Of a stretch of DNA of 64,000 nt, positions 29,227-62,916 are shown one piece after another (the stretch's first letter is position 1; every line of letters starts with the position of its first letter). The notes beneath the pieces were generated by a model, which saw only the letters and a program-made list of their open reading frames with translations, was not told the DNA's origin and did no database searches. Source of the DNA: Blastococcus litoris. GTDB lineage: Bacteria; Actinomycetota; Actinomycetes; Mycobacteriales; Geodermatophilaceae. The stretch covers positions 1-64,000 of the forward strand of contig NZ_QCZF01000013.1 of the NCBI RefSeq assembly GCF_003075095.1, in the 5' to 3' direction. The position numbers and the translations under genes were made by a program.

Positions 29227-29241
29227 ACTAAGAACGTTAGT
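29227..29241. promoter_or_regulatory. ACTAN-N5-NTAGT inverted repeat, copy 1
   Basis: ACTAA-GAACG-TTAGT, a perfect five-base inverted repeat, stands ahead of the DUF305-like remnant in the gap between csoR and the Csp gene. Confidence 0.6.
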
Positions 29242-29411
29242 CGCACAGTGACCCGGGTAGGCGCGCTAGGCAAGCCAGCGCGTCCACCACCGCAGGGATG
29301 CGCCACTACCGAGGGCAGCCGCATGGAATCCGTCAAGCGCGCGATAGCCGAGGTCACACCGTCCTCGGACGCAGCCGCCACGGAAGTGGGTGACCCGTCC
29401 ACGACAATTGC

Positions 29412-29606
29412 CATGTCGGCGGCGATCCTGATTCCCACCATCGCAGCGGCATCGAGATGCTCGAGATGGCTGAGAGCAGTGCCGCGACCGCGGCGCTGCG
29501 GCACCTGACAGCTGGGCCCAGACCGATCAGGAGAAGGACCTTCCCGGCTCGAACAGATCATCAGCGCCACAGCGCGTCGGCCCATGCGCCTGGAGAGCCA
29601 GATTGA
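29412..29606 (+). pseudogene. Remnant of a DUF305-type gene
   Basis: One frame reads DPDSHHRSGIEMLEMAESSA then ATAALRHLTAGP, close to the DUF305 pattern PHHxxAIEMAxxA, then loses similarity and stops at 29604. A neighbouring frame continues TDQEKDL, which suggests a frameshift. No start or signal peptide joins up. Two intact DUF305 genes lie at 31853 and 34529. Short and degenerate, so uncertain. Confidence 0.4.
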
Positions 29607-29730
29607 GCGCATGGAAACGCACCAGATGCAGACGCTGAGAGCGCGGCGTCGGCACGTGGTTCGAGCCGGTAGGGACGCACCTTCTCCATCGGGGATTCAC
29701 CAGACCGCAAAGAAGCTGTGCACTATCCGC

Positions 29731-29746
29731 GTACTCGTACGGGTAT
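29731..29746. promoter_or_regulatory. Second CsoR-like site, ahead of the Csp gene
   Basis: GTACTCGTACGGGTAT shares both ends with the csoR operator (GTAC and GGGTAT) with a one-base shorter spacing. It lies 70-85 bases upstream of the copper storage protein gene. Confidence 0.5.
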
Positions 29747-29815
29747 GCGACCGAGATCGGCGCTTTTCGGCGGTGGAGATGGCCGCCCGCGCCGCCGTCG
29801 AGAGGAGTGAACGTC

Positions 29816-32643: not shown

Positions 32644-32658
32644 ACTAACGTGCTTAGT
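32644..32658. promoter_or_regulatory. ACTAN-N5-NTAGT inverted repeat, copy 2
   Basis: ACTAA-CGTGC-TTAGT, perfect, about 90 bases upstream of the C40 peptidase gene. Confidence 0.65.
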
Positions 32659-32745: not shown

Positions 32746-33339
32746 ATGGAGGGGATGACCCAGGTCCTGTCTCGGATCGCGGAGATTCGCGCACAGTTCC
32801 CCACACCAGTTCAGCCGACAGCTACCAGGTCCGTTTCCGCCTGGTCGTCCGCAGCCGCGGACGCGGGCCTGACGACCACCGGCGGGCAAGCGAACGGAGC
32901 GTCGGCAACATCCCTGGCGACGGACCCCGTCAGCGGGCTGGGTGCCGCTACCGACGGCTCCCCGGCAGGCCGGGCAGCGGCCGCAAAGGCCGCCGAGTAC
33001 CTCGGCGTCCCCTATCTCTGGGGTGGGACGGACCCGACGAAGGGGCTCGATTGCTCGGGCTTCACCCAGCTGGTCTACAAGAGCCAGGGCGTCGACCTCC
33101 CCCGCGTGTCCGCCCAGCAGGCAACCGCGGGCCGAGCTGTCGCGTCGCTGAACGAAGCGCGCCCGGGCGACCTCCTGTTCTTCGACTACTCCCCCACTCG
33201 ACCGGGGATCGATCACGTCGGCATCTACGTCGGCAACGGGGACATGATCGCCGCGCCACAGCCCGGCGACGTCGTCAAGGTGCAGCCCGTCGGCCAACCG
33301 ACAGTCATCCGACGCGTTGTGCCAGACGGATCCGGCTAA
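32746..33339 (+). CDS. C40 (NlpC/P60) peptidase
   Basis: The 197-residue protein has a short N-terminal helix (MEGMTQVLSRIAEIRAQF), a low-complexity Ala/Thr/Ser region and a C-terminal NlpC/P60 domain with Cys103 in LDCSGFTQLVY and His157 in IDHVGIYVGNG. Such enzymes cut D-Glu/DAP bonds in peptidoglycan. No signal peptide is visible, which is odd for a wall enzyme; similar N-termini occur in flagellum-associated or phage-like wall hydrolases. The ATG follows GGAGGG. The frame extends upstream without a stop, but that part looks non-coding. Confidence 0.85.
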   Translation: MEGMTQVLSRIAEIRAQFPTPVQPTATRSVSAWSSAAADAGLTTTGGQANGASATSLATDPVSGLGAATDGSPAGRAAAAKAAEYLGVPYLWGGTDPTKGLDCSGFTQLVYKSQGVDLPRVSAQQATAGRAVASLNEARPGDLLFFDYSPTRPGIDHVGIYVGNGDMIAAPQPGDVVKVQPVGQPTVIRRVVPDGSG

Positions 33340-35693: not shown

Positions 35694-35708
35694 ACTACGC
35701 CCCGTAGT
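35694..35708. promoter_or_regulatory. ACTAN-N5-NTAGT inverted repeat, copy 3
   Basis: ACTAC-GCCCC-GTAGT, perfect, upstream of the DUF6153-like and DUF305 pair (minus strand). Confidence 0.65.
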
Positions 35709-37033: not shown

Positions 37034-37075
37034 GTGACTCTCTCGTGACAACTATGTGGGACGGATAGTTGTCAC
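37034..37075. promoter_or_regulatory. GTGAC direct repeat and long inverted repeat in a divergent promoter
   Basis: GTGAC-TCTCTC-GTGAC (37034-37049) overlaps a perfect 11-base inverted repeat, GTGACAACTAT (37045-37055) and ATAGTTGTCAC (37065-37075). The region lies between riboswitch 1 (minus) and the BlaI gene (plus). The direct repeat recalls MtrA-type boxes; the dyad may be a BlaI or Crp-like operator. Confidence 0.5.
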
Positions 37076-37246: not shown

Positions 37247-37609
37247 GTGCCACCGCTGGGCAAGCTCGAAGCGGCCGTCATGGGCCTTCTGTGGTCGGCG
37301 GGCCGCGCACTGACCGTTCGCGAGGTCCTGGAGCAGCTCCCCGCGCAGCGCAACCTCGCCTACACGACGATCATGACGGTGCTGAGCAATCTGCATCGCA
37401 AGGGCATGGTGGAGCGACAGCCGGTCGGCCGCGCGTACAGCTACTCCCCCGCGCTAAGTCGAGAAGCGGCCGCTGCGGCGTCCCTGCGCGAGATCCTCGA
37501 CGCGTCGGAAGATCCGCGGTCCGTGCTGCTGCACTTCGCCGAGAATGCTTCGGACGAGGAATCCGAGGTGCTCCGGACCGGACTCAGCAAGCGGGATCCC
37601 GCGCCATGA
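37247..37609 (+). CDS. BlaI/MecI/CopY-family transcriptional regulator 1
   Basis: The 120-residue winged-helix repressor has the family pattern LEAAVMGLLWSAGRALTVREVLEQL, then NLAYTTIMTVLSNLHRKGMVERQPVGRAYSY. Family members repress until a partner membrane protease of the M56 group is triggered. The next gene, overlapping by ATGA, is such a protease. The GTG at 37247 follows AAGGAGAG. Confidence 0.9.
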   Translation: MPPLGKLEAAVMGLLWSAGRALTVREVLEQLPAQRNLAYTTIMTVLSNLHRKGMVERQPVGRAYSYSPALSREAAAAASLREILDASEDPRSVLLHFAENASDEESEVLRTGLSKRDPAP

Positions 37610-38541
37610 CGCCTCTCGTGGCGCTCAGTGTCGGCGGCATTCTGCTCGCCTGGCGCGGCCACCGGCTCCTGTCGTGGCTCGCGGGACGTCGCGTGGACCC
37701 GACGATCCTCCTCACTGGCTGGACAGCGTCGACTGTCGGCCTCGTCGCATCGCTGCTCGCCACGCTCAGCCTGGTGGCTCTCCCGGTCGGCGACCACCAT
37801 TCGGGCGCTCTACGACTGGCCGGGGAGTGCTGGACAGCCATCTCTTCTGGCGTTGCGCCGGGCGCAGCCGCGACGATGGGTGGCATCGGCGTGATGACCG
37901 CCGCTGTCGTCGTCGTCAGGATCGCCTACGTCGTCCACGGCAGGTTCCGTCGTCGGCGTCGCAACGCCCCACACCTGCGACAACTACGAGCACTGGCCGC
38001 GGATTGCCGCGGGCAGGAGCCTCTGTGGATCGAGGACGAGCGCCCGATCGCGCTGTCCATCGGGGGGCGGGCCGGTCTGATCATCTTGAGCCGCGCGCTG
38101 CAGACCCATCTGACGCCGGCCGCCGTACGCGCGACTCTCGAGCACGAACGGGCGCACCTTCGGGGGCGCCACCACCTCATTCTGGCGGTCGTCGACACCT
38201 TGGCGACGGCGCTGCCCTGGTGCCCGCTCCTGCGAGCGGCGCCGGAAGCCGCGCGCGACCTCGTGGAACTGGCAGCGGATAGTCAGGCGGCGCGCCGCTG
38301 CGGAAAGCCTGCCGTGCGGGAAGCGCTGTCCCGGCTGACAGGCCATCCGATGCCCGCCGCAGCGCTTGCGATGGCCGGACGCCTGACGGAGGCGCGTCTC
38401 CAACGACTCTCTTCGGGGAGCCTGGGCGCCAGCGGGCTGAGCCGGCTAGCGGGCTGCTCGGCGATTGCGGCCGGCGCGCTCGTGTTGCCCGCCGCCACTG
38501 CCGGTCTGGCCGCCCGCATCGTGCTGTGCGCCTTCGGTTGA
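37606..38541 (+). CDS. M56 BlaR1-like membrane metalloprotease 1
   Basis: The 311-residue protein has three or four N-terminal helices, a cytoplasmic zinc-protease core with HERAH (LEHERAHLRGRHH), the downstream acidic ligand region (ELAADSQAAR) and a final helix. There is no penicillin-binding sensor domain, so the signal is unknown. It is coupled to BlaI 1 by a four-base overlap and probably cleaves it on stimulation. Confidence 0.88.
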   Translation: MTPLVALSVGGILLAWRGHRLLSWLAGRRVDPTILLTGWTASTVGLVASLLATLSLVALPVGDHHSGALRLAGECWTAISSGVAPGAAATMGGIGVMTAAVVVVRIAYVVHGRFRRRRRNAPHLRQLRALAADCRGQEPLWIEDERPIALSIGGRAGLIILSRALQTHLTPAAVRATLEHERAHLRGRHHLILAVVDTLATALPWCPLLRAAPEAARDLVELAADSQAARRCGKPAVREALSRLTGHPMPAAALAMAGRLTEARLQRLSSGSLGASGLSRLAGCSAIAAGALVLPAATAGLAARIVLCAFG

Positions 38542-41080: not shown

Positions 41081-41983
41081 TCAGCCCCGGTAGTTCACGT
41101 GCGGGTGGTCCATGTGATTGGCCGTGGCGTCCCCTCGGTCCTCCATGGACTTCCACGCGCCACCCGGCGAGTTGAGGATCCGCTGGCGATAGATGATGTA
41201 CTCCACGCCCAGCGCGTCCCAGTTGGCGATGTGGTACTCGACGATCGCATTGCCCAGCGGGACGTTGCTGGTTCCCACTATGTAGTCCAGGGCGAGACCC
41301 GAGGGGTGACCACCCGGGTCCGTCGCGCTGGCTCGGGTGCCGCCGATGGTGATGCCGGCCGTCCCCGGAACGTTCGAGACCACCGCGTTCGCGGCGTTCT
41401 GGGCCACAGCCTTGACGGCGCCGGCACTATTGCTGATCTTGGCGAGGACGCTGGCAGCCACGGACGCGGCCGGCGCAGCGGGCGCAGCAGCGGCCGACGC
41501 AGCCTGTGCCGCGGCCTCCGCAGCCGCGGCCTCCGCAGCCGCAGCCGCCTCGGCGGCGGCCTTCGCCTCGGCCTCCGCCTGAGCTTTGGCGGCGGCTGCG
41601 GCCTCCTCGGCCTGGGCCTGAGCGGCCACGGCAGCGGCCTGCTCGGCATCGCGCTCGGACCGGCTGGCGGCCAGCTGCTCGAGCAGGTGGGGCTCCTCCA
41701 TGGCCGGCGTGTCGACGCCCGATCCGTCGATACCAAGGGCGGCTGCGACCGCCACCGACGGCGAGTCGGTGGCGTTGGCGGCGGGTTCGCCTGACAGGAG
41801 GTTCACCAGAGCCAGCGAGCAGACGGTCGCCACGCCGAGGGCGTACGCGACCCGAGAGCTCGGGGCGGACCGAAGCCCGATCCTGCGGCGCCTGCCGTGA
41901 CGCGTGCGCGGGGAAACGAGGAGGACCTCAGTGTCGACGGACTCGTCGAGGGGCTGTGCAGTGTGCGTGTTCAGGGGCGCCAC
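41081..41983 (-). CDS. Secreted Ala-rich coiled-coil protein with M15-like C-terminal domain
   Basis: The 300-residue protein has an N-terminal signal-anchor (VAYALGVATVCSLALVNLLSG), a long Ala/Glu coiled-coil (about 95-175) and a C-terminal domain with GHPSGLALDYIVG, LGVEYIIYRQRI and MDHPHVNYRG. The His/Asp and HPHV motifs are those of the ARB-07466-like/M15-related fold found in wall-active proteins. The GTG start has GGAGA upstream and directly follows the second c-di-AMP riboswitch, so it belongs with the wall hydrolases. Confidence 0.82.
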   Translation of the reverse strand: MAPLNTHTAQPLDESVDTEVLLVSPRTRHGRRRRIGLRSAPSSRVAYALGVATVCSLALVNLLSGEPAANATDSPSVAVAAALGIDGSGVDTPAMEEPHLLEQLAASRSERDAEQAAAVAAQAQAEEAAAAAKAQAEAEAKAAAEAAAAAEAAAAEAAAQAASAAAAPAAPAASVAASVLAKISNSAGAVKAVAQNAANAVVSNVPGTAGITIGGTRASATDPGGHPSGLALDYIVGTSNVPLGNAIVEYHIANWDALGVEYIIYRQRILNSPGGAWKSMEDRGDATANHMDHPHVNYRG

Positions 41984-50003: not shown

Positions 50004-50651
50004 TTGAGCACCAACCTGAAGGTTTCCGCCGCACTGGTAGCCGCGTTCGTCGTGGCCGTCGCGGTGTTCCTCGGAGTGGCCAACCGTGGCGACGCTCCTG
50101 GGACCACATCAGACGGAGACTCGGTCGTCGTCCGTGAGAACAGCCACCGCCTGTCGACCGCGGCCGACGGGAAGGTGACGTTGGTCGAGTTCCTCGACTT
50201 CGAGTGCGAGAGCTGCCTGGCCGCTTACCCGTTCGTCGAGCAACTGCGCGAGGACTACGACGGCCGGGTGACCTTCGTCGCGCGGTACTTCCCGATGCCA
50301 GGGCACGCCAACGCCGAGAACGCGGCCGTCGCCGTCGAGGCCGCTGCGCAGCAGGGCCGGTTCGAGGACATGTACCAGCGGATGTACGAGACCCAGGCCG
50401 AGTGGGGCGAGCAGCAAGAGTCCAAGGCCACCCTCTTCCGCACGTTCGCCGAGGAGATGGGGCTCGACATGGACGAGTACGACTCCGCGGTCGAGGATCC
50501 CGCGACGCTCGAGCGAGTGCTGCAGGACCGCGAGGACGGTCTCGCGCTGGGGGTCGAGGGCACGCCGACGTTCTTCCTCAACGGGGAGAAGGTGGAGGTC
50601 GAGACCACCGACCAGTTCATCGAGCTGATCGATGCTGCGCTCGCCGGCTGA
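50004..50651 (+). CDS. DsbA-like thiol-disulphide oxidoreductase, membrane-anchored
   Basis: The 215-residue protein has an N-terminal signal-anchor (VSAALVAAFVVAVAVFLGVA) and a DsbA-type thioredoxin domain with the active site FECESC (Cys68, Cys71) and cis-Pro in GTPTFFLNG. TTG start behind GAGGAG. The next gene encodes a VKOR, so the two form an oxidative folding pair on the outer face of the membrane. Confidence 0.9.
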   Translation: MSTNLKVSAALVAAFVVAVAVFLGVANRGDAPGTTSDGDSVVVRENSHRLSTAADGKVTLVEFLDFECESCLAAYPFVEQLREDYDGRVTFVARYFPMPGHANAENAAVAVEAAAQQGRFEDMYQRMYETQAEWGEQQESKATLFRTFAEEMGLDMDEYDSAVEDPATLERVLQDREDGLALGVEGTPTFFLNGEKVEVETTDQFIELIDAALAG

Positions 50652-51297
50652 GCGGTTCGTAGCGGCGCCTGCAGCGAAGCTGCCGGCAGCCGAAGCGGAC
50701 GCGCGACCACCGGATTCTCGCGGCCTGGCCTGGCTCCTCCTCGTGGCCGGTCTTCTAGGACTCGTGGCGTCGTTCGTCCTTGCCGTCGAGAAGTACGCAC
50801 TCCTGGCCGATCCGGAGTACGTGCCGACGTGCAGCCTGAACCCGGTGCTGAGCTGCGGCCCGATCATGGCGAGCCCGCAGGCCGAGGCCTTCGGGTTCCC
50901 CAACCCCCTCCTCGGGATAGCCGGATTTGCGGTCGTGGCCGCCACGGGTGCCGCTCTGTTGGCAGGTGCCCGACTCGCCGGGTGGTACTGGGCGGGTCTT
51001 CAGCTCGGCGTCACCGCCGGCGTGATCTTCGTGCACTGGCTGATCTTCAGCAGCCTCTATCGCATCGGTGCGCTCTGCCCGTACTGCATGGTCGTGTGGG
51101 CCGTGACGATCCCCGTGTTCTGGTACGTCTCCCTACGCAACGCAACGGCAGCAAGCGGTCGGTGGCGTCCTGCAGCCGCGCGCACGGTGCACGGCGCTCG
51201 GAGCCTGCACGGCGTCGTGCTCACCCTCTGGTTCCTGCTGATCGCGGCCGCGATCCTGCAGCGGTTCTGGCTGTTCTGGAGCACCTCTCTTGGCTGA
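50632..51297 (+). CDS. VKOR-family disulphide-generating membrane protein
   Basis: The 221-residue protein has about five helices, the CxxC active site in IGALCPYCMVVW and the partner cysteine pair region PTCSLNPVLSCGPIM. VKOR proteins reoxidise DsbA-like partners using quinone. It overlaps the DsbA-like gene by 20 bases and the TlpA-like gene by eight, so the three genes are co-translated. Confidence 0.92.
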   Translation: MLRSPAERFVAAPAAKLPAAEADARPPDSRGLAWLLLVAGLLGLVASFVLAVEKYALLADPEYVPTCSLNPVLSCGPIMASPQAEAFGFPNPLLGIAGFAVVAATGAALLAGARLAGWYWAGLQLGVTAGVIFVHWLIFSSLYRIGALCPYCMVVWAVTIPVFWYVSLRNATAASGRWRPAAARTVHGARSLHGVVLTLWFLLIAAAILQRFWLFWSTSLG

Positions 51298-51901
51298 CAT
51301 CGCCTCACGCCGCCTGGCCCTCGTCCTCTGCGCCGCCGCCACAGCTGTGTCTCTGGCGGCATGCGGCGGGGAACCCGGGAGCAACGCCAGCACGGCGACC
51401 GAGAGCTCCGGCGACTTCGACTTCGAGGGCAGCACCCCGCTCGGGAAGGTGATCCCGATCGACGCCCGGGAATCGGCGCCCGCCTTCGAGGGCGAACTGC
51501 TCGACGGGACCGAGTTCACTTCTTCGAACCTGGCAGGGGATGTCACGGTCCTGAACTTTTGGGGCTCCTGGTGTGCGCCCTGCCGGATCGAAACCCCGGA
51601 GTTCCAGGCCGTCTACGCCGACGTCTTGGACTCCGGCGTGCGGTTTCTCGGTGTCGACGTCAAGGACGACCGACAGATGGCACAGGCGTTCGTCGACTCC
51701 GTCGGGGTCACCTACCCCTCGCTCTTCGACCCCCGCGGGGAAGTAGCCATGGCGTTCCGCGGCTTCCCCGCCAACGTCGTCCCCAGCACCATCCTCATCG
51801 ACCGCGCCGGCCGAGTGGCCGCGGTGTACGTCGCCGTCGTCCCTGAGGAGGACCTGCGCGGGGCCCTTGACCAGCTGGCAGCCGAGGAGACGCCACGGTG
51901 A
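51290..51901 (+). CDS. TlpA/ResA-like thioredoxin lipoprotein
   Basis: The 203-residue protein has a lipoprotein signal (LVLCAAATAVSLAAC, lipid Cys25) and a TlpA/ResA domain with WCAPC (Cys95, Cys98) and cis-Pro in NVVPSTILID. ResA-type proteins reduce apocytochrome c haem motifs using electrons from CcdA, which is the next gene (GTGA overlap). TTG start. Confidence 0.9.
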   Translation: MADIASRRLALVLCAAATAVSLAACGGEPGSNASTATESSGDFDFEGSTPLGKVIPIDARESAPAFEGELLDGTEFTSSNLAGDVTVLNFWGSWCAPCRIETPEFQAVYADVLDSGVRFLGVDVKDDRQMAQAFVDSVGVTYPSLFDPRGEVAMAFRGFPANVVPSTILIDRAGRVAAVYVAVVPEEDLRGALDQLAAEETPR

Positions 51902-52731
51902 GCGAACTGGGCGACGCGTTCGCCGGCATCGTCACCGACGGCTCCCTGCTGCTGGCCGCGGCCGTGGCCGCGCTGGTGGGCCTGATCAGCTTCGCGTCGC
52001 CGTGCGTGCTCCCGCTGGTGCCCGGCTACCTGGCTTACGTCGCAGGGCTCACCGGCGCTCAGGCCGGCATACCCGGTTCGGGAGCCCGACAGGAGGCGTC
52101 GGGCGTTGCCGAACCCGGGACCACCCTCACGACGCCTCGTGATCAACGGCGGCGAGTAACCCTTGGCGCCTTGCTCTTCGTGCTGGGGTTCACCGTCGTG
52201 TTCGTGTCGTTCGGCGCACTCTTCGGCGGCCTCGGGCGACTTCTGTACGAATGGGCGCCGCTGCTGACGCGACTGATGGGCGTTGTCACCATCCTCATGG
52301 GGCTGGCCTTCCTCGGCGGCCTTCACTGGCTGCAGCGCGAGCGGCGCATCACCCGCCGACCACCGGCCGGCCTCGTCGGCGCACCCGTCCTCGGTGTCGT
52401 CTTCGGCCTCGGCTGGACTCCGTGCCTCGGCCCGACGTTGTCGGCGGTCAATTCGCTGGCCTACGCGGAGGCTTCAGCCGGTCGAGGCGCAATCCTGGGC
52501 CTCGCGTACTGCCTCGGTCTCGGCGTTCCATTCGTGCTCGTAGCCCTGGGCGCCCGGCGCGCGCTCACGCTGTCCGCCTGGGCCCGGCGCCATGCTCCAA
52601 CCGTCATGCGGATCGGTGGCATCCTGCTCATCGTTCTCGGCGTCCTACTGGTCACCGGTGCCTGGGACTCGATCATGATGTGGCTCCGCTCCTGGCTGGC
52701 TGCCACGGGCTTCGGGACCTCGTCCTTCTGA
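51898..52731 (+). CDS. ccdA: CcdA cytochrome c biogenesis protein
   Basis: The 277-residue DsbD-beta-type membrane protein has the two redox cysteines in FASPCVLPLVPGYLAYVAG and FGLGWTPCLGPTLSAV, each in a helix. It passes electrons from cytoplasmic thioredoxin to the TlpA/ResA-like protein. A cytoplasmic loop of about 30 residues (about 55-85) is rich in Gly, Ser and Thr. Start overlaps tlpA by four bases. Confidence 0.93.
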   Translation: MSELGDAFAGIVTDGSLLLAAAVAALVGLISFASPCVLPLVPGYLAYVAGLTGAQAGIPGSGARQEASGVAEPGTTLTTPRDQRRRVTLGALLFVLGFTVVFVSFGALFGGLGRLLYEWAPLLTRLMGVVTILMGLAFLGGLHWLQRERRITRRPPAGLVGAPVLGVVFGLGWTPCLGPTLSAVNSLAYAEASAGRGAILGLAYCLGLGVPFVLVALGARRALTLSAWARRHAPTVMRIGGILLIVLGVLLVTGAWDSIMMWLRSWLAATGFGTSSF

Positions 52732-52766: not shown

Positions 52767-52781
52767 ACTAAGCAGCTTCGG
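52767..52781. promoter_or_regulatory. ACTAN-N5-NTAGT-like site, copy 9 (degenerate right arm)
   Basis: ACTAA-GCAGC-TTCGG lies 76 bases upstream of the M23 gene at 52857. Confidence 0.4.
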
Positions 52782-52856: not shown

Positions 52857-53555
52857 GTGCGCATGCCGCGGCCTGCACGACTGGGGCGACGCCCCGCACC
52901 GGGGCTCCGGCAGCGACCCCGCTTGCTCCTGAGCACGGTCGTCGTCGGCGGTATCGCCGCGAGCCTCGTCGAGGGCAACTGGTGGCTCGACACGCCCGTC
53001 GCCCACGCGCACGACGCGCCCGCCAACACGATCCTCGGCAGTGACGGCACCGCGGACGTTCTCGCCGAGTTCGATGCCCGGCCCCAGATCGCTGCCGCGG
53101 AGGTCGCGGCACGCAGTCAAGAACTGGCGGCGTCCCGGGCGGCCCGCGAGGAAGCTGCCCGACCGAAGGCCGTCATGCCCGTCGAGGGGCGTCTCACCAG
53201 TGCCTACGGGCGTCGATGGGGCGGGATGCACTACGGACTCGACATCGCGGCACCGATGCTGACGCCGGAGTACGCGGCCGCCGACGGCGTGGTTCTGCGG
53301 GCCGGTTCGGCTTCGGGGTTCGGCCTGGCCGTCTACATTCTCCACGACAACGGAGACGTCACCGTCTACGGCCACATGGAGCGGATCCTGGTCGAGGCCG
53401 GCCAGACCGTCCGGGCCGGCGACACGATCGCCCTCCTGGGCAACCGGGGCCAGTCGACAGGGCCGCACCTGCATTTCGAGGTGTTCGAGGGGGGCCTGGA
53501 CGGGCGTCGCGCCGATCCTGCGGCCTGGCTTGGCGAACGCGGTGTGGACATCTAG
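52857..53555 (+). CDS. Secreted M23 peptidase, short form
   Basis: The 232-residue protein has an N-terminal signal region (RPRLLLSTVVVGGIAASLVEG), a short helical spacer and an M23 domain with HYGLDIAAP and HLHFEVFEGG. It lacks the long coiled-coil of the two larger M23 proteins. GTG at 52857 with GGGAGT upstream is preferred; TTG at 52809 in frame lacks a ribosome site. It is convergent with the next gene. Confidence 0.87.
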   Translation: MRMPRPARLGRRPAPGLRQRPRLLLSTVVVGGIAASLVEGNWWLDTPVAHAHDAPANTILGSDGTADVLAEFDARPQIAAAEVAARSQELAASRAAREEAARPKAVMPVEGRLTSAYGRRWGGMHYGLDIAAPMLTPEYAAADGVVLRAGSASGFGLAVYILHDNGDVTVYGHMERILVEAGQTVRAGDTIALLGNRGQSTGPHLHFEVFEGGLDGRRADPAAWLGERGVDI

Positions 53556-53582: not shown

Positions 53583-54008
53583 TCAGTTGCGGCGCTGGCG
53601 CAGCACCTGCTCGTTGAGCCCGGCGAGGTAGGCGTTGTAAGCAGCGAGGTCCGGATCCCCGGTCGTGTCGATGCGAGCCGGCCGATAGAGGACCAGCGAC
53701 GATCCTGGCTCCTCAGCGTCCGGGTCGCGCTCGAGCTCCATCCGCATCATCTTCGTGTAGAACCACAGCCCCATCAGGCCGTAGACCGGCCACTGAAAGG
53801 CGTACGACGTGTTCTGCGCGTTCCACCCGCGGGCCGCCGACCGCTCCCACTGCCACCACCCCAGTTGCAGGGTGGCCACGAACAACAGCAGGACGACGGC
53901 GTGCATGAGCAGGTACCAAGGGCGCAGCAGGCGCGGCCAGTAGAGCGGCGAGCCGGTCGCAGTCTCCGACCCGTCGTCCCGCATCTCCGACTCGCCCATG
54001 ATGATCAT
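53583..54008 (-). CDS. Two-helix membrane protein, CtaG/oxidase-associated
   Basis: The 141-residue protein has helices LLMHAVVLLLFVATLQLGWWQW and FQWPVYGLMGLWFYTKMM with WERSAARGWNAQNTSYAF between them, and a tail ending DPDLAAYNAYLAGLNEQ that resembles the CtaG tail. Such proteins occur near CtaG and SCO genes in actinobacteria, but I know no assigned function. It is divergent from the SCO gene. Confidence 0.7.
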   Translation of the reverse strand: MIIMGESEMRDDGSETATGSPLYWPRLLRPWYLLMHAVVLLLFVATLQLGWWQWERSAARGWNAQNTSYAFQWPVYGLMGLWFYTKMMRMELERDPDAEEPGSSLVLYRPARIDTTGDPDLAAYNAYLAGLNEQVLRQRRN

Positions 54009-54070: not shown

Positions 54071-54085
54071 ACTAACGTGCTTAGG
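54071..54085. promoter_or_regulatory. ACTAN-N5-NTAGT-like site, copy 10, overlapping the SCO start codon
   Basis: ACTAA-CGTGC-TTAGG includes the GTG at 54077. The first 13 bases equal the copy at 32644. A repressor here would block both transcription and translation start, or the real start is at GTG 54104. Confidence 0.5.
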
Positions 54086-54733
54086 CGACGCCCTCTCCGC
54101 GCAGTGCTCACCGGCCTCGCCACGGCGGCGATGGCCGCCGTACTGCTCGGCTGCAGCAGTACGGACGCCGCCGACCACGGCGAGGGGCACGTCGCGACGG
54201 TGTCCGGCGGAGGCGACGCCGGGCCGTACGCCGGCCGCGAGATCAGCGACCCGAAGCCCCGGCCGGAGTTCACGCTGACGGCCCAAGACGGCACGTCGTT
54301 CGACTTCGCCGCTCAGACCGCGGGTCGGCCCACGTTGCTCTTCTTCGGGTATGCGAACTGCCCGGACGTGTGCCCGACGACGATGGCGGATGTCGCCCTC
54401 GCCCTCCAGTCGGTCCCCATCGAGGTCGCCCAGCGCACGCAGGTGGTCTTCGTGACCACCGACCCGGCCCGGGACACGGCCGAGTTCCTCGGTGAATACC
54501 TCGCCCGGTTCGACCAGGGGCTGCCCAACCGCTTCATCGGCCTCACCGGCACACAGGCCGAGGTGGAGAACGCCCAGACCGTGGCCGACGTGCCGCTCGC
54601 CGAGGGCGACGGAACGATGCACGCGACGAGCCTCTACCTGTACGGCGCCGACGACCTGGCCCGCGTCATGTTCTCGGCCGGGGATACCCAGGACGAGATC
54701 GCACAGGACCTCGAGACGGTGGCCGCCGCCTGA
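54077..54733 (+). CDS. SCO1/SenC/PrrC-like copper lipoprotein
   Basis: The 218-residue protein has a lipoprotein signal (RRRPLRAV...AVLLGC, lipid Cys26), and a thioredoxin-fold SCO domain with the copper ligands CPDVCP (Cys95, Cys99) and His182 in TMHATSLYLYG. SCO proteins load or reduce the CuA site of cytochrome oxidase. GTG 54077 keeps the positively charged signal; GTG 54104 would remove it. An extra HGEGH motif follows the lipid cysteine. Confidence 0.9.
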   Translation: MLRRRPLRAVLTGLATAAMAAVLLGCSSTDAADHGEGHVATVSGGGDAGPYAGREISDPKPRPEFTLTAQDGTSFDFAAQTAGRPTLLFFGYANCPDVCPTTMADVALALQSVPIEVAQRTQVVFVTTDPARDTAEFLGEYLARFDQGLPNRFIGLTGTQAEVENAQTVADVPLAEGDGTMHATSLYLYGADDLARVMFSAGDTQDEIAQDLETVAAA

Positions 54734-56919: not shown

Positions 56920-57402
56920 TCAGGCAGCGGTGACTGTCATCGTGCCGATCTGACCAAGGGCGACGTGGAACGAGCACTCGTACTGGTAGTCCCCGGGCTG
57001 CTCGACGGCGAACTCGACGGTCTCGCGCTCACCGGGCGCCACGATGGGGATCTCTTCCTCGATCTCCGCCGGCCCGCGGCCGGGTGTGAAACGGATGTTG
57101 TGCGTCAGCTCCTTGGCTTCGCTGGTCAACGTGAGCCGCACCCGGCCGGTCGTCACCGCGAAGGCGGACGGCCGGAAATCGTAGTCGTCCTGCACCAGGA
57201 CGGTGATCTCCTGCGTCCCGTCGGGGGCCACCGTCACCTGGCCTGCGGATGCCGCGTCGTTGGTATCGCCCGATTCCTGCTCGGGATCGTCGCCACAGGC
57301 GGCCAGTGCCAGCGCGCCGGCTCCCGCGAGGCCGGTGAGCAGGACTGCTCGCCTACTCAGGTTGGAGGGACTAGATCCCAGCGCATTCCGCTGGCTCGTC
57401 AC
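56920..57402 (-). CDS. Cupredoxin lipoprotein/Tat-exported copper protein
   Basis: The 160-residue protein has a twin-arginine-like signal ending in a lipobox (SRRAVLLTGLAGAGALALAAC), an acidic linker and a plastocyanin-like domain with likely type 1 copper ligands: His in ELTHNIRF and Cys and His in YECSFHVALGQIGTM, the last having Gln and Met as candidates for the axial ligand. It overlaps the M56 gene by four bases and so shares the BlaI 2 operon. Confidence 0.87.
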   Translation of the reverse strand: MTSQRNALGSSPSNLSRRAVLLTGLAGAGALALAACGDDPEQESGDTNDAASAGQVTVAPDGTQEITVLVQDDYDFRPSAFAVTTGRVRLTLTSEAKELTHNIRFTPGRGPAEIEEEIPIVAPGERETVEFAVEQPGDYQYECSFHVALGQIGTMTVTAA

Positions 57403-58343
57403 GTGATGTTGCAGAGGTCGCTGAGGGCGGCACAGAAGGCCGGATAGCCGGCGATCAGCAGAGGTGCTGCCACCACAGCCATGGCCCCGAAGACCGCAAC
57501 GCGGTACCGCCAGGGCTCCAGAGGCGGCTGCGGCGAGAGAAGGCGGGCGATCCGGACGACGGCAGCGTCCTGCGCCATCGCCATGGCGGCGGCTGGCGCC
57601 TTCATCTCGGCCAGACTGACGATGGCGGATGCCAGGTCCACCCGGTTGACGCGACGCAGGGCGGCATCATCCGCGAGCAGTTCGATCAACTCGCGGGTCT
57701 CCTGGGTAGCCACTTGGAACAAGCGGATGCCCGGGAAGGCGCGGGCCAGGATCTGGGACAGGGCGACGGCCAGGTTGTGGTGCCCGCGGAGATGGGCTGC
57801 CTCGTGCGCCAGCACGCCGTTCAGCTCATCGCGCGACAGGTGGTCGAGCGCGCCGCGCGTGACCACGATCTGAGCTCGGCGTCCGGGAACGCAGAAGGCG
57901 GCAGGCGCCGCCGAGTCGAGCACACTGACGCCCAGCCCGGAGTCGGTTTCGGTGACGAGGCGCAGCGAGCGGTGGAGACGGCGGCGGGTTCGCCAGCTGC
58001 CCAGAAGCACGCGGGCGCCGGTGAGCCCGACCCAGAGCGGAACCGCCCCGGCGAGGAACGTGCCGAGCAGCTTGGTGGGCAAGAACTGTGAGCTGCCGTA
58101 CGAGGTAGCGACACTCGTCGCGCAGGCCTGGATGAGTGCTCCGAGGTCACCGGCCAGGACAGTGATGGGGATCAGCAACGTCACACCGGCCAGGACAACG
58201 GCGGCCACCGCGCTGACCGTCATCGCCTGCCAGGCGATGATCGCCAGCCGCGGCGCCTGCTGCACCCAGGTCGCCGCCGCCAGCCGCGGGCCGACGACCA
58301 GGATCGCCGCCGCGACGGACAGCAGACCCAGGCTGGCGATCAT
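57399..58343 (-). CDS. M56 BlaR1-like membrane metalloprotease 2
   Basis: The 314-residue protein has N-terminal helices, a zinc-protease core HEAAH (VLAHEAAHLRGHHNLAVAL), ELLADDAALRR, and a last helix. No extracellular penicillin-binding domain is present. ATGA overlap with BlaI 2 and four-base overlap with the cupredoxin gene, so sensor, repressor and copper protein are one unit. Confidence 0.88.
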   Translation of the reverse strand: MIASLGLLSVAAAILVVGPRLAAATWVQQAPRLAIIAWQAMTVSAVAAVVLAGVTLLIPITVLAGDLGALIQACATSVATSYGSSQFLPTKLLGTFLAGAVPLWVGLTGARVLLGSWRTRRRLHRSLRLVTETDSGLGVSVLDSAAPAAFCVPGRRAQIVVTRGALDHLSRDELNGVLAHEAAHLRGHHNLAVALSQILARAFPGIRLFQVATQETRELIELLADDAALRRVNRVDLASAIVSLAEMKAPAAAMAMAQDAAVVRIARLLSPQPPLEPWRYRVAVFGAMAVVAAPLLIAGYPAFCAALSDLCNIT

Positions 58344-58717
58344 GAGCGGCTGCCCCGTGCCTGACGACGCGCAGCTTCCACTGCGGATCGGAGCTGGGCA
58401 ACACTGTCGGAGTCCAGATCGGCGACGAAGTGCATGAGCACTTCCTGGCGGTCCCCGGACTCGGCGAGCACGTCCTGCAGCAAGGCGGCGGCATGTTCGG
58501 CACGGGTACGGACCGGACGGTAGAGCCAGGCGCGCCCGCTCATCTCGCGGGTGAGCTGACCTTTGCGGTGAAGGTTGTCCATGACGGTCATGACGGTGGT
58601 GTAGGCGAGCTGTCGTGAAGCGCTGAGTGCGGCCAGTACGTCCCGGACGGTGGCCGGCTCTCCTCGCTCCCACAGCTCGCGCATGATGGCGGCCTCGAGG
58701 TCTCCGAACGGTCGCAT
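58340..58717 (-). CDS. BlaI/MecI/CopY-family transcriptional regulator 2
   Basis: The 125-residue winged-helix protein has LEAAIMRELWERGEPATVRDVLAAL, then LAYTTVMTVMDNLHRKGQLTREMSGRAWLY. It is a paralogue of the regulator at 37247. ATG at 58717 is chosen because homology begins there; a GTG at 58741 would add eight residues. An ACTAN-N5-NTAGT-like site 79 bases upstream suggests autoregulation. Confidence 0.9.
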   Translation of the reverse strand: MRPFGDLEAAIMRELWERGEPATVRDVLAALSASRQLAYTTVMTVMDNLHRKGQLTREMSGRAWLYRPVRTRAEHAAALLQDVLAESGDRQEVLMHFVADLDSDSVAQLRSAVEAARRQARGSRS

Positions 58718-58795: not shown

Positions 58796-58810
58796 ACGAG
58801 CAAGTTTAGG
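58796..58810. promoter_or_regulatory. ACTAN-N5-NTAGT-like site, copy 11 (degenerate), ahead of BlaI 2
   Basis: ACGAG-CAAGT-TTAGG lies in the gap between BlaI 2 (minus) and the secreted membrane protein gene at 58975 (plus). Confidence 0.4.
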
Positions 58811-58974: not shown

Positions 58975-60066
58975 GTGGCATCGCGATCCGTCCGGGGTGT
59001 GCTCGCCCGCATCTCCTTGGTGGCGTCCGCCGTCGTCGCGCTGGCGCTGGCCGGGGCCGGGCCAGCGGCGGCCCACACCGACCGGGGCGTAGCCGGGAGC
59101 AACTACGCAGGCCGCGTGCTCACCATCTCGGAACCGATGCCGGGCGTCAGCGTGCAGGTCACGGAGTTCGGCGACAGCCTCGAACTGCTCAACGGGTCAT
59201 CGGTGACGGTCACCGTGTACGGCTACTCCGACGAGGAGTACCTCCGCATCGGACCGGACGGCGTCTGGCGCAACGCCAACAGCCCGGCGACCTACATCAA
59301 CCTTCGCCGGGACGGCGTCACGGACCTGCCCCCGAACGCCGACCCCCGGGCGACACCGGACTGGCAGCAGGTGTCCACGCAGCCCGAGTACTCCTGGCAC
59401 GACCACCGCACGCACTGGATGTCATCCACCCTCCCGCCGCAGGTCGCCGCCGATCAGGACTCCCACCACACCGTCTTCGAGTGGCAGGTGCCGCTCGCCT
59501 ACGGCGACGCGGCCGTACTCGTCGAGGGGGAACTGACCTGGTCACCACCGCCCAGCAAGGCGCTGTGGTGGCCCGTCTACCTGCTCATCCCGGTCGCGGG
59601 GCTGATGGCCGGGCTGCGCGGCCGCACGGCACGGCCGCTCGCCGCGCTACTGACCGCGTCCGCAGGAGCAGCTGTCTGGCACCTGCTGGCCACGCCTCAA
59701 TCGGGTCTTACCGCGGTAGACCGGGCGCTGTCCCTGGGCGCCGCGTCACTTCCCGCAATAGTGCTCGTCGCCGTGACGGCCGTAGGCGTCCGCGCAGCCG
59801 TGAGCGGCAAGGACCTCCTGGCGGCGATGCTCTCGGGCCTGGTCGGCTTCATGCTGCTCGTCCAGGGCCTGCCCGACGTCGATGTCCTGTGGGGCGCCAA
59901 CGTCATCACCGGCGGGCCCGTCGCGATAGCCCGTCTCAGCGCGGCCCTGCTCATCTTCGGTGGTGTGGGTCTGATGGCGGGCGCAACGGTGGCGGTCCGC
60001 AGGTTCCGTCCCGCCGTCCCCTCGAGCAGCGACCAACAGCAGGCCGAGCGGGCAAGGACTGCCTGA
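58975..60066 (+). CDS. Secreted membrane-anchored protein of unknown function
   Basis: The 363-residue protein has a signal peptide (ISLVASAVVALALAGAGPAAAH, with His directly after the cleavage site), an extracytoplasmic domain of about 170 residues (GVSVQVTEFGDSLELLNGSS, VTVTVYGYSDEEYLRIGPDG, YSWHDHRTHWMSSTLPP, VFEWQVPLAYGDAAVLVEG) and about five C-terminal helices. Mature His1 and the HDHRTHW cluster look like metal ligands, as in CopC-type proteins, though no named family is recognised. GTG start. Convergent with the DyP gene. Confidence 0.75.
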   Translation: MASRSVRGVLARISLVASAVVALALAGAGPAAAHTDRGVAGSNYAGRVLTISEPMPGVSVQVTEFGDSLELLNGSSVTVTVYGYSDEEYLRIGPDGVWRNANSPATYINLRRDGVTDLPPNADPRATPDWQQVSTQPEYSWHDHRTHWMSSTLPPQVAADQDSHHTVFEWQVPLAYGDAAVLVEGELTWSPPPSKALWWPVYLLIPVAGLMAGLRGRTARPLAALLTASAGAAVWHLLATPQSGLTAVDRALSLGAASLPAIVLVAVTAVGVRAAVSGKDLLAAMLSGLVGFMLLVQGLPDVDVLWGANVITGGPVAIARLSAALLIFGGVGLMAGATVAVRRFRPAVPSSSDQQQAERARTA

Positions 60067-60073: not shown

Positions 60074-61366
60074 TCAGGGTTCGAACAGGGCCCTGCCCCA
60101 CCAGTCGTCGTCCTCACGGACCCCGGGCGGACAGGCGAAGACGGCGGACGACGTGTGCTGGATGAACCGGTTGAGCGCGTCGGCTGCCAGGTTGCGCTGC
60201 ACCTGGACGAAGCCGCGCTCCGGGTTGCGCTGATAGGCGATGAAGAACAGGCCTGCGTCGAGACGACCGGCCGCGTCCGTGCCGTCGACGAAGCTGTATC
60301 CACGCCGCAGCATGGCCGTACCGGCGTTGGCGGGATGCGACAGGAAGACGTGCGAGTCCCGCGGGATGGCCGGGGCACCGCGCCGGACGGCGGCGAAGTC
60401 GGTCGGATCGAACTCTCCCCGCTGACCCAGCGGCGCGCCCGCGGTCTTCGTGCGTCCGATGACCGCCTCCTGGTGCGACGCGGGCACCTGGTCCCAGTCC
60501 TCGATCAGCATGCGGATCCGGCGGGTGACGAGATAGGAGCCGCCTGCCAGCCAGGCTGCGTCGTCCTCCCCCACCCACAGGAACTGATCGAGTGCGCTGC
60601 CGTTCTCGGCCTTCAGGTTGGCCGTGCCGTCCTTGAAGCCCAGGAGGTTGCGGGGCGTGGCCTGCGCCGTACTGGTGGACGATGTGCGACCAAATCCGAG
60701 CTGTGTCCAACGAACACGCACGACGCCGGCGCCCAGCCGCACCAGGTTGCGCACGGCGTGCACAGCGACCTGGGGGTCGTTGGCGCACGCCTGGACGCAC
60801 AGGTCTCCCCCGCTGATGGCTGGATCGAGCACGTCGCCGGGGAAGATCGGCAACTCGGCGAGGGGTTCCGGGCGGCGACCCGCGAGTCCGAAACGATCGG
60901 CGCGGTCGGCCGTCATGAAAAGCGTTGGTCCGAAACCGACGGTCAGTGTGAGGCCGGATGGTGGGAGCCCCTGAGCCTCACCGGTGTCATGCGGGCCGAC
61001 GTCCTCACCGGCGGTCAGTCGCCGGGCGGCCTCCGTCCACGCCATCAGCATGGCCACGAGTTCTTCACGGCTGTCAGTCACGACGTCAAACGCGACGAAG
61101 TGCAGCCGGTCCTGCGCTGGCGTCACGATGCCCGCCTGATGACGTCCGGTGAACTCGACCGGCGCGGTGGAGTCCGGAGCTGCCGATGACAACCCGACCG
61201 GCGACGACGGCACTGCAGCCGTCGCGCGACCGAGCACTCCCCCGACACCCCCGGATGCCAGGACTCCGGCGGTCCCGAGACCAGCCAGGCCGAACAGCCT
61301 TCGTCGCGACAGGCCCCGCTCCTGCTCCCCCGCCGGCTGGTCGGCCGGTTCAGGGTCGTCCGTCAC
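60074..61366 (-). CDS. Tat-exported DyP-type haem peroxidase (EfeB-like)
   Basis: The 430-residue protein has a twin-arginine signal (LSRRRLFGLAGLGTAGVLAS) and the DyP fold with the GxxDG motif GFKDGTAN, the proximal His in DSHVFLSHPANAG, and the distal Arg region MLRRGYSFVDG. EfeB-type enzymes are peroxidases or take part in haem and iron use. The GTG at 61366 gives a normal Tat signal; the frame extends to 61444 without evidence. No EfeU or EfeO gene is adjacent. Confidence 0.9.
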   Translation of the reverse strand: MTDDPEPADQPAGEQERGLSRRRLFGLAGLGTAGVLASGGVGGVLGRATAAVPSSPVGLSSAAPDSTAPVEFTGRHQAGIVTPAQDRLHFVAFDVVTDSREELVAMLMAWTEAARRLTAGEDVGPHDTGEAQGLPPSGLTLTVGFGPTLFMTADRADRFGLAGRRPEPLAELPIFPGDVLDPAISGGDLCVQACANDPQVAVHAVRNLVRLGAGVVRVRWTQLGFGRTSSTSTAQATPRNLLGFKDGTANLKAENGSALDQFLWVGEDDAAWLAGGSYLVTRRIRMLIEDWDQVPASHQEAVIGRTKTAGAPLGQRGEFDPTDFAAVRRGAPAIPRDSHVFLSHPANAGTAMLRRGYSFVDGTDAAGRLDAGLFFIAYQRNPERGFVQVQRNLAADALNRFIQHTSSAVFACPPGVREDDDWWGRALFEP

Positions 61367-61423
61367 GACAGATCCCAGGGGCGCAGAGAGCTCAGCGGTG
61401 GAGGACACATCTCTGCACAGGCT

Positions 61424-61438
61424 ACTAGCCGAGATAGG
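61424..61438. promoter_or_regulatory. ACTAN-N5-NTAGT-like site, copy 12 (weak), ahead of DyP
   Basis: ACTAG-CCGAG-ATAGG lies 58 bases upstream of the DyP start. The right arm differs at two positions. Confidence 0.3.
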
Positions 61439-61574
61439 AGGCATCGGCGCGCCGCACCGGACGGTTCCGCGGGGCGCACAGCGAGGCAGCAGGCGTCGTC
61501 CGGTCGGCGAGCACGCCGTTGGCGACGACGACGCCCTGGCGACCTCGTGCCGAGCACGCTGGACCGGGCAGGTC

Positions 61575-62573
61575 CTATTCGACGCCGCCGTAGGAGTGCA
61601 GGCCCGTCGAGACGAGGTTCACGAAGAGCAGGTTGAACACCAGGCTGGCGAAGGCTAGGAGGTTGATCCAGGCCGCCGGCTTACCGCGCCACCCGGCGGT
61701 CGTACGGGCATGCAGGTACACGGCGTACAGCACCCAGGAGATGAAGGCCCATGTCTCCTTGGGGTCCCAGCCCCAGAAGCGACCCCACGCGCTCTCGGCC
61801 CAGATTGCCCCGGCGATGACGGCGAATGTCCAGATCGGAAAGCCGAAGACGGCGGTGCGGTGCGCGACGCGGTCCAGCGCCGCCACCGTCGGCAGCCTGC
61901 CCGCGAGTCCTGTCCGAGGCCGGGCGTCGTCGTCCGGGTTCCGCTTCTCATGGCGGATCCGGACGAGATAGAGGGCGCTGGCTACCCCACTGACCATGAA
62001 GATCCCGAAGGAGATGATGGCCGCGGAGACGTGCACTGCGAGCCAGTCCGACCGAAGCGCTGCGATCAACGGACCGGCGGCGGCGTACAGGTAGAGACCG
62101 ATCAACGCCAGGCCGAAAATCGCAAGGCCGAGGACGAAGGCGCCGATGCGGCGCACTCCAGGGACTCGTGTCGCTACCACGAGGTAGGCGACGACGCCGA
62201 TGAGCACCGACGCCGTTCCGAACTCGTACATGTTGCCCCAGGGGACCCGGCCCGTGGCAGCGCTCCGGGTGACGAGCACCCCCGCGTGGAGCACTGCGCC
62301 CAACGCTGTCAGCGCCAGACCCGCCAGCCCCCACCGATGCGTCGACGCGCTCCTCGCGTTCGGCGGCGGGGACTCCTCACCGATCCGGCGCTCGGCCCTC
62401 GGCAACGAAGCGCCGACAGGCACCTCGACAGTGGCGGGGTGCCTGCTGGCCCGCACGCTGCCGTGGCGCCCGAAGGCCAGTTCGGCACTGAACATCAGCA
62501 CCGCAATCGAATAGACGGCGATGGCGGCGCTGAACAGCGAGTCCGACATTGCGGACCACTCAGCGGGAGTCAT
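61575..62573 (-). CDS. CcsA/ResC cytochrome c synthase subunit
   Basis: The 332-residue polytopic protein has the haem-handling motif WGRFWGWDPKETWAFISW and PWGNMYEFGTA, LAVHVSAAIISFGIFMVSG, with conserved histidines in helices. It is the haem-ligating subunit of system II cytochrome c maturation with ResB, which is encoded divergently next to it. An ATG at 62549 is an alternative start. Confidence 0.93.
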   Translation of the reverse strand: MTPAEWSAMSDSLFSAAIAVYSIAVLMFSAELAFGRHGSVRASRHPATVEVPVGASLPRAERRIGEESPPPNARSASTHRWGLAGLALTALGAVLHAGVLVTRSAATGRVPWGNMYEFGTASVLIGVVAYLVVATRVPGVRRIGAFVLGLAIFGLALIGLYLYAAAGPLIAALRSDWLAVHVSAAIISFGIFMVSGVASALYLVRIRHEKRNPDDDARPRTGLAGRLPTVAALDRVAHRTAVFGFPIWTFAVIAGAIWAESAWGRFWGWDPKETWAFISWVLYAVYLHARTTAGWRGKPAAWINLLAFASLVFNLLFVNLVSTGLHSYGGVE

Positions 62574-62916
62574 GGCGGGCCTTTCCTTGCCGGGTGGCGC
62601 TACCTGTCGGTTTGCGAAGCGGGTGACCGAAGTCTGAGCGTGCGGCCGGTGCGGCGCCTGCAGTCACCGCCCAGGATCCCGGGTCACGCCCGCTGCTCGT
62701 AGCGGAGCAGCGGCCGGTCTGGCACTGTCTACTAGAGCAGCTAGTAGCGTGTCCAACCGGCCGTACTGGCCGGAGGCGACCACCGCTGGGTCGGGCGTCA
62801 ACCACTGGAACCCGCCCGGGTGCGGAGTCGCGTGAAGGGGCCGCCGTGAGCAAGCACTCGCGGACCCGGCCGTGTCCGGCGGCGCCTGTTCGGAGCCAGG
62901 CCGCAGAGAGGATGCC
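62574..62916. other. Divergent promoter region between ccsA and resB
   Basis: These 343 bases hold no supported gene. They contain the perfect ACTAN-N5-NTAGT dyad at 62731-62745 midway between the two starts, placed to control both cytochrome c synthase genes. Confidence 0.55.
62731..62745. promoter_or_regulatory. ACTAN-N5-NTAGT inverted repeat, copy 13
   Basis: ACTAG-AGCAG-CTAGT, a perfect inverted repeat in the divergent ccsA/resB promoter region. Confidence 0.65.

Follow-up and report, generated by a model that had tools for sequence, protein, structure and literature searches.

A recurrent inverted repeat marks a probable BlaI regulon in a gene island of Blastococcus litoris

BlaI/BlaR1 systems are chiefly known as a beta-lactam switch. 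Here we describe the first 64,000 nucleotides of contig NZ_QCZF01000013.1 (contig 13, or C13) of Blastococcus litoris (Geodermatophilaceae; assembly GCF_003075095.1), a stretch that we call the window, in which an inverted repeat, (C)TACTA-N7-TAGTA(G), recurs between genes of copper handling, cytochrome c and disulfide biogenesis and cell-wall hydrolysis, together with two genes for BlaI-family repressors (BlaI1 and BlaI2), each paired with an M56-type membrane metalloprotease. An earlier note, made from the letters of this DNA, had read the repeat as the mark of a regulon and named the two BlaI/M56 pairs as its leading candidate regulators. Our analysis makes it highly likely that the repeat is the operator of the island BlaI repressors, and suggests an island-wide switch that would be worked through the M56 protease.

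Results

The island and its predicted operators

At about 14 kb the G+C content drops from about 0.76 to 0.69, and a phage-type integrase gene (14865-16007) lies at this step. Together these suggest that an integrated element extends from there to the end of the contig (79.4 kb); no tRNA marking an insertion site was found in the window. This island holds a partial nuo set, copA, copZ, csoR, a DUF326 gene, two DUF305 genes, a DUF6153 gene, two C40 and three M23 peptidase genes, ctaG, dsbA-VKOR-tlpA-ccdA, ccsA, resB and genes for SCO, CDF, cupredoxin and DyP proteins, as well as the two BlaI/M56 pairs. BlaI1 (37247-37609, plus strand; 95.4 bits, E 3.8e-27) and BlaI2 (58340-58717, minus strand; 89.7 bits, E 2.1e-25) both match the Penicillinase_R repressor family PF03965 far above its cut-off of 22.6, BlaI2 being the best and BlaI1 the second candidate binder of the repeat. 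Their partners, of 311 amino acids (37606-38541, plus) and 314 amino acids (57399-58343, minus), are encoded by genes that overlap those of the repressors by 4 bp in both pairs.

Thirteen predicted, unstranded operators were scored with a 19-bp symmetric matrix. Six contain the exact core ACTA-N7-TAGT and were all recovered where the earlier note had placed them: 29227-29241 (24.4 bits), 155 bp before csoR (28774-29079, minus); 32644-32658 (23.8 bits), 95 bp before a C40 (NlpC/P60) gene (32746-33339, plus); 47019-47033 (17.4 bits), 155 bp before an M23 endopeptidase gene (45597-46871, minus); and three that extend to exact TACTA-N7-TAGTA, namely 35694-35708 (18.3 bits), 52 bp before the DUF6153 gene and then DUF305 (35649 to 34529, minus), 45515-45529 (23.5 bits), 52 bp before a STAS-domain gene (44670-45470, minus), and 62731-62745 (20.9 bits), between the divergent ccsA (61575-62549, minus) and resB (62917 onward, plus). 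The other seven lie 45 bp before a small gene starting at 42429 on the plus strand (42377-42391; 17.1 bits), 52 bp upstream of the cyclic di-AMP (c-di-AMP) riboswitch of the M23 gene at 47167-48423 on the minus strand (48647-48661; 19.9 bits), between the divergent ctaG (48782-49708, minus) and dsbA-VKOR-tlpA-ccdA (50004-52731, plus) (49901-49915; 21.6 bits), 149 bp before the M23 gene at 52923-53555, plus (52767-52781; 19.4 bits), between a gene at 53583-54008, minus, and the divergent SCO gene at 54104-54733, plus (54071-54085; 22.4 bits), in the promoter of blaI2-M56-cupredoxin on the minus strand, divergent from a plus-strand gene at 58999-60066 (58796-58810; 19.4 bits), and 65 bp before the DyP peroxidase gene at 60074-61366, minus (61424-61438; 19.5 bits). 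The targets listed earlier need one correction, as the site at 29227 precedes csoR and not DUF305; the DUF305 gene at 34529 does stand behind a site, second after DUF6153 (35694). A site before DUF6153 also occurs in the relative loci L120, L124, L126, L134 and L135.

All 13 sites are intergenic by our own gene calls, against 17.8% of all bases at 25-64 kb, and 11 of them lie 26-155 bp from the nearest start codon.

Shape and confinement of the motif

Genome-wide counts come from pattern searches, exact or with one mismatch; matrix scores cover the window and chosen loci. With at most one mismatch to ACTA-N7-TAGT, the window has 14 matches, against a mean of 1.14 and a maximum of 4 in 100 dinucleotide shuffles. 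The whole genome (4.63 Mb, 87 contigs) has seven exact copies, six inside the window, and TACTA-N7-TAGTA with at most one mismatch occurs at 11 places, nine of them at 29-70 kb of contig 13; under uniform placement the probability of such clustering is about 1e-12 for the exact core and about 2e-17 for the longer pattern. By these counts the motif is near-absent outside the island, not equally dense inside genes across the genome. The seventh exact copy (C2:137809 on contig 2) sits by the 3' ends of a convergent gene pair, scores below 13.5 bits and was set aside as chance; one-mismatch matches at 16737, 36225, 56976 and 59748, absent from the earlier list, fall inside called genes and were likewise excluded. 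Beyond the window, a TlpA-like gene is preceded by a further strong site, C13:70363 (18.6 bits). On another contig, a place scoring 15.4 bits (C1:337662) precedes a TetR gene.

The matrix was built from the 13 sites of the earlier note, so that their rank in the window (first, at 17.1-24.4 bits, with the next place at 13.2 bits inside nuoN) is partly circular. This circularity is answered by the pattern-only searches and by a leave-one-out analysis: when each of the 13 sites was omitted in turn, no non-site place in the window outscored it. The inverted repeat itself is real, yet the 15 bases first given for it are too few, the dyad spanning 17-19 bp around a spacer of 7; in 80 named actinobacterial loci with a related BlaI gene, a gap of 7 bp between TACTA and its complement was counted 77 times, one of 10 bp 11 times and any other from 0 to 20 bp at most twice.

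Across 262 oriented sites, conservation follows the columns of the dyad, with a preference for A or T just inside and outside it. No fixed-distance conserved column that would mark a separate promoter element appeared beyond about 11 bp from the centre of these sites; TAnnnT peaks within or at the edge of the dyad, and a TACTAT-like left arm (TAnnAT), present in 81 of the 262, could double as a -10 box. Among 263 genes behind sites, whose starts were called by our own simple gene finder, trained on the window and applied to other taxa too, the distance from operator centre to gene start is 25-99 bp in 121 and 100-199 bp in 82, which would fit operators over or near promoters.

The regulon in relatives and on plasmids

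In 20 loci of relatives beside BlaI genes we found 74 matrix sites, 72 of them intergenic, which in one locus or another precede genes for DUF6153, C40, M23, SCO, CtaG, cupredoxin, TlpA-CcdA, CcsA/ResB and BlaI2. The 80 named loci, five of which duplicate contigs sampled before, yielded 218 sites against 48 in a reversed control, with 214 between genes and four inside; 28 of these loci have a site before the BlaI gene, and related BlaI genes with nearby sites occur in Streptomyces, Nocardioides, Amycolatopsis, Cryobacterium and others. In 20 of the 80 loci L138-L217 a site recurs 1,324-1,399 bp after the BlaI match, at about the end of the M56 gene, perhaps as the promoter of a conserved third partner gene.

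To compare gene families we took 145 of the 263 genes behind sites (11 of them from the window) and 145 of 634 controls, all encoding proteins of fewer than 700 amino acids without internal stops, from loci chosen around BlaI genes; counts given as at most 3 reflect the 25 commonest Pfam families of each list. Genes behind sites were enriched in M23 (9 against at most 3), NlpC/P60 (8 against at most 3), AhpC/TSA (9 against 3) and ResB (6 against at most 3).

Among 72,556 plasmid records, 117 contain a relative of BlaI2. In three annotated examples (Streptomyces, Rhodococcus and a Mycobacterium gallinarum plasmid) a BlaI-M56 pair is accompanied by DUF305 and M23 genes and, in varying mixtures, by C40, TlpA/CcdA, multicopper oxidase or heavy-metal ATPase genes; the matrix finds 3, 1 and 4 sites in them, and 0, 0 and 1 when reversed as a control. 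The BlaI/operator wiring thus appears to be mobile.

Concordance of motif and repressor

We searched separately for the exact 17-bp pattern TACTA-N7-TAGTA and for the BlaI family in a first set of 61 relatives (37 of the family and 24 at order level). Of the 37 family genomes, 11 had a BlaI1/2-type gene, and these 11, and no others of the 37, had the motif. In the full set of 112 Geodermatophilaceae-level genomes, a gene was scored as BlaI1/2-type when it reached 160 bits or more to profile A1, all other matches listed staying at 101 or below; such genes occur in 36 of the 37 genomes with the motif and in 5 of the 75 without it (Fisher 9e-23). As profile A1 was derived from genes beside sites in the first genome set, the 75 genomes outside it provide the fairer test: 25 have both, 5 the gene only, 1 the motif only and 44 neither (6e-14). 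Among the 72 exact sites listed, 63 have a BlaI1/2-type gene no more than 20 kb away and 4 come from contigs that lack one. On this evidence the regulator of the sites is very probably BlaI, in line with the candidates named at the outset.

Paralogue-specific candidate operators

The genome holds a third BlaI-family gene, directly ahead of which lie two perfect copies of a different palindrome, TTCTAC-N5-GTAGAA (C2:114732 and C2:114755, together spanning 114732-114771). Both versions share CTA-N7-TAG and differ in the bases that precede this core. We compared the best matrix hit upstream of each of 72 BlaI genes with their tree, and found a TACTA-type site in the gene's own promoter in 8 of 8 members of the BlaI2 clade (support 100/98), among them the site at 58796 that the earlier note had seen before one pair, and the TTCTAC type in 32 of 34 members of the third-paralogue branch. 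In all, 14 genes have the TACTA type (some of them outside the BlaI2 clade), 32 the TTCTAC type and 26 neither; these three labels change 10 times on the tree, against 31.9 times when shuffled. The two TTCTAC-N5-GTAGAA palindromes are 23 bp apart, start to start (8733-8772 of locus L075), and the third BlaI gene lies a few kb from a second copA-copZ-csoR set.

For BlaI1-type genes, the N7 site occurs in the own promoter in one of five members of their family-level branch. Between BlaI1 and the riboswitch-led C40 gene of the window there is, at 37045-37075, a perfect inverted repeat, GTGACAACTA-N11-TAGTTGTCAC, which has ACTA/TAGT arms as in the operator and a spacer of 11, and which is largely kept in the genomes G026 and G029. 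The putative recognition helices of the two repressors, AYTTIMTVLSNLHRKG against AYTTVMTVMDNLHRKG, are nearly identical. The closest solved chain to BlaI2 is 2g9w, presumably Rv1846c (BlaI) of Mycobacterium tuberculosis; two order-level genomes (loci L045 and L046) whose BlaI is by eye closest to this chain have weaker TACGAC-N5-GTAGTA sites.

M56 partners without a sensor domain

Scanned as longer open frames (37291-38541 and 57399-58673), neither M56 protein reached the Peptidase_M56 (PF05569) cut-off of 31: the BlaI1 partner came just below it at 29.5 bits, and the BlaI2 partner matched only M48 (40.7 bits). The HExxH zinc motif (H180, E181 and H184) is invariant in all 17 aligned M56 sequences. 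A structural model of the BlaI2 partner (pLDDT 85.9) aligned best by VIA-align with BlaR1 8exs (Z 10.4, rmsd 5.1, 211 residues aligned, spanning helices and protease), with BepA and ZMPSTE24 within 1 Z; Foldseek also ranked a BlaR1 chain first (8exp, E 0.024), with no hit at E of 0.001 or less. Pfam found no penicillin-binding sensor domain in either protein: both end where the BlaR1 sensor domain would start, the BlaI2 partner stopping after its last predicted helix.

Two cysteines of the BlaI2 partner, C74 and C311, recur in related proteins. C74 is a cysteine in 16 of the 17 aligned sequences and in 26 of 35 from the named loci; its loop stretch contains a cysteine in 17 of 17 and 26 of 35 but in none of 26 third-paralogue partners, and the last 14 residues contain one in 15 of 17, 29 of 35 and 1 of 26, respectively, where the 35 (two from duplicate loci) and the 26 are subsets found by a pattern. 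Neither repressor contains any cysteine. BlaI2 has a histidine-phenylalanine pair, H96-F97, whose phenylalanine is invariant in the alignment and which by eye seems to stand at the position where Staphylococcus aureus BlaI is cut (N101-F102).

Riboswitches below predicted operators

With Rfam we detected 11 c-di-AMP riboswitches: three are in the window, and a set of 14 other loci, one from this genome and 13 from relatives, contributed eight. The one at 48435-48594 on the minus strand (ydaO/yuaA; 79.4 bits) is the leader of the M23 gene at 47167-48423, and a second (41998-42152) precedes a minus-strand gene (41081-41983) for a 300-amino-acid protein without a Pfam or NCBIfam match. An operator lies 44-53 bp upstream of all five M23-leading riboswitches (in the window, L123, L124, L128 and L136); four of the five M23 genes are most like the 47167 gene and that of L124 is most like the 52923 gene. 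Elsewhere the operator is 165 bp (a C40 gene in L124) or 224 bp upstream (gene 41081, site 42377), and the four riboswitches before the C40 gene beside BlaI1 (window, L121, L134 and L135) have none. With an operator above the riboswitch, the M23 enzymes would need both release of BlaI and the right c-di-AMP state.

Other features of the island

The partial nuo set (A, H, J, K, L, M and N) occupies 16493-25273 and was recognized by similarity, with a Pfam check of NuoA; the other nuo names are our own labels. Beside it lies a gene (23298-24848) for a 516-amino-acid protein without a Pfam or NCBIfam match, relatives of which occupy the same place in L118, L119, L126, L134 and L135.

Discussion

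Weighing the explanations

The operators, their confinement to the island, their link to BlaI and their targets are supported by computation, and several other explanations of the same sites can be weighed against them. That the motif is a chance or structural repeat of A+T-rich intergenic DNA would agree with sites that are richer in A+T than the window, as intergenic DNA of such genomes usually is; it is a negligible prospect given a spacer of exactly 7, near-absence elsewhere in the genome, the excess of matrix hits over the reversed control in the 80 loci and a second, paralogue-specific version. We also regard it as very improbable that the sites belong to another regulator of the island (ArsR at 31323 or 54788, TetR at 39298 or CsoR at 28774) with BlaI as a passenger. 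Such genes are indeed present, and ArsR-like genes recur in several relative islands, but across the 112 family genomes 13 of the 37 that bear the motif and 12 of the others have the TetR orthologue (E up to 1e-20), 24 and 24 have that of ArsR 31323 (E up to 1e-15), and 36 and 5 have BlaI1/2-type genes, whose BlaI2 clade has the autoregulatory site throughout.

A closer question is which BlaI uses the N7 operator. It might be used by BlaI2 (58340) alone, with BlaI1 using another, such as the N11 repeat in its own divergent promoter: the BlaI1 promoter lacks an N7 site here and in G026, G029 and G006, and the N11 repeat, perfect here, is largely retained in G026 and G029. We find this division of labour possible but doubtful, since N7 sites accompany BlaI1 in G006, G008, G026 and G029, where a BlaI2-type gene is absent, and one of those in G008 falls within the BlaI1 promoter, and since the recognition-helix residues of the two repressors differ so little. 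Because genomes with BlaI1 and without BlaI2 carry N7 sites, the simplest reading would be that both pairs act on one operator set here. As to the signal, cell-wall damage or beta-lactams could be sensed as in BlaR1/BlaI, the copper and cytochrome genes being passengers; the best-known family members respond to beta-lactams, and because peptidoglycan hydrolases are the clearest enrichment behind sites this stays a rival to be reckoned with. We nonetheless think it unlikely, as the 25 commonest of the 110 families behind sites include neither beta-lactamases nor transpeptidases, the M56 partners have no penicillin-binding sensor domain, and thiol-redox and cytochrome genes (AhpC/TSA and ResB) stand behind the sites as well.

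Several observations speak against reading the repeat as the operator of the island BlaI proteins and copper or thiol redox as their signal. BlaI1 has no N7 site in its own promoter in this genome; five family genomes (G061, G070, G075, G076 and G120) have the gene without an exact site, and G098 has an exact site without a BlaI1/2-type gene. Outside the family the link is weaker: 9 of the 24 order-level genomes have an exact site, only four of these nine (G040, G044, G047 and G058) have it close to a BlaI gene, at a distance of up to about 15 kb, and in G057, which has no PF03965 match, there are three TACTAC-N5-GTAGTA sites (C38:7604, C42:10513 and C139:4387). The copA, copZ, DUF326 and CDF genes of the island have no site directly ahead, CtaG (3 against 3) and CopC (5 against 4) are not enriched behind sites, and DUF305 is commoner in the controls (5 against at most 3). 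The case for copper as the signal is one of gene content. BlaI1-type M56 partners and 9 of the 35 named-locus ones partly break the cysteine rules, a different cysteine, near residue 37, is conserved among the third-paralogue partners (25 of 26), and the outward orientation of C74 and of the C-terminus is one that we assume from the BlaR1 topology.

Relation to known systems

The island pairs resemble BlaI/BlaR1 of S. aureus in that a repressor gene is paired with a membrane zinc metalloprotease, and differ in that BlaR1 has an extracellular penicillin-binding sensor and its targets are resistance genes; the classic S. aureus BlaI operator has the core TACA-N2-TGTA. CopY of firmicutes is also a BlaI-family repressor in a copper context, and senses metal through a C-terminal cysteine hook. 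Because BlaI1 and BlaI2 contain no cysteine, and hence no such hook, direct copper sensing by the repressor is unlikely. M. tuberculosis BlaI (Rv1846c) was reportedly treated together with Rv1845c by Sala in 2009.

A closely similar published operator is that of Clostridium thermocellum BlaI_0696, GTCTAT-N5-ATAGAC, obtained by DAP-seq and electrophoretic mobility shift assay (PMC8457756): this repressor, too, is of the BlaI family and autoregulated, and shares the CTA-N7-TAG core with the island operator, but its three-operon regulon is read as a beta-lactam response, each target has paired dyads and the flank is GT instead of TA. Together with the concordance across genomes and the autoregulatory sites of BlaI2, this published core upholds the BlaI pairs as leading candidates. 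Like the island M56 proteins, the BlaR1 homologue of M. tuberculosis lacks the sensor domain, and how it detects beta-lactams is described as unclear in PMC9834060. The M. tuberculosis BlaI targets named in PMC12565901 include Rv1303, co-transcribed with ATP-synthase genes, and Rv2151c, and differ from the island regulon; searches within PMC12565901, PMC8265638 and PMC4757040 gave no operator sequence of mycobacterial BlaI.

A proposed mechanism and its meaning

DNA binding, repression, proteolysis, the signal and the direction of control we infer as follows. A BlaI2 dimer, and probably BlaI1 too, would bind the 13 sites of the window ahead of up to 17 transcription units, the operon of BlaI2 itself among them. 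Bound BlaI would silence genes for copper handling (CsoR, DUF6153/DUF305, cupredoxin and SCO), for cytochrome c and disulfide biogenesis (CtaG, DsbA-VKOR-TlpA-CcdA and CcsA/ResB), for DyP peroxidase and for the peptidoglycan hydrolases (C40 and M23). The co-transcribed M56 protease might then use its two predicted outward cysteines to sense a signal in the envelope, copper or thiol redox being the most likely one, and cleave BlaI, so that the whole island would be switched on together, with one M23 hydrolase additionally gated by the c-di-AMP riboswitch. Relief by proteolysis is likely, as M56 keeps the HExxH motif and its model has BlaR1 as the best match, with other zinc proteases close behind, and BlaR1 in S. 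aureus cleaves BlaI directly (PMC9834060). Since the regulon contains thiol-redox and copper genes, the first hypothesis to test for the signal is a dithiol or copper switch facing outward.

The component parts of this system are of known kinds. As far as our searches tell, the novelty lies in how large the regulon is and what it contains, in its restriction to an island that appears to be mobile, in operators that differ between paralogues, in the c-di-AMP layer added to them and in two cysteines that may stand in for the missing sensor; a search by title and abstract opening, weak in that most subscription journals lie outside it, found no BlaI regulon of such content in actinobacteria. More speculatively, and as a possibility rather than an expectation, sensor-less actinobacterial M56/BlaI pairs could be envelope copper/thiol switches in which C74 and C311 replace the sensor, gate cleavage and open a mobile regulon that combines cytochrome metal loading with local peptidoglycan opening, one hydrolase being gated by c-di-AMP as well, with TA or TT before CTA keeping the chromosomal paralogue separate.

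Where a BlaI operator precedes a c-di-AMP riboswitch by 44-53 bp, one cell-wall hydrolase would come under two independent controls. The operator, a large and defined regulon, a paralogue with a different operator as a built-in control and branch-specific cysteines together make the signal directly testable, and the operator rule lets BlaI regulons be read from sequence.

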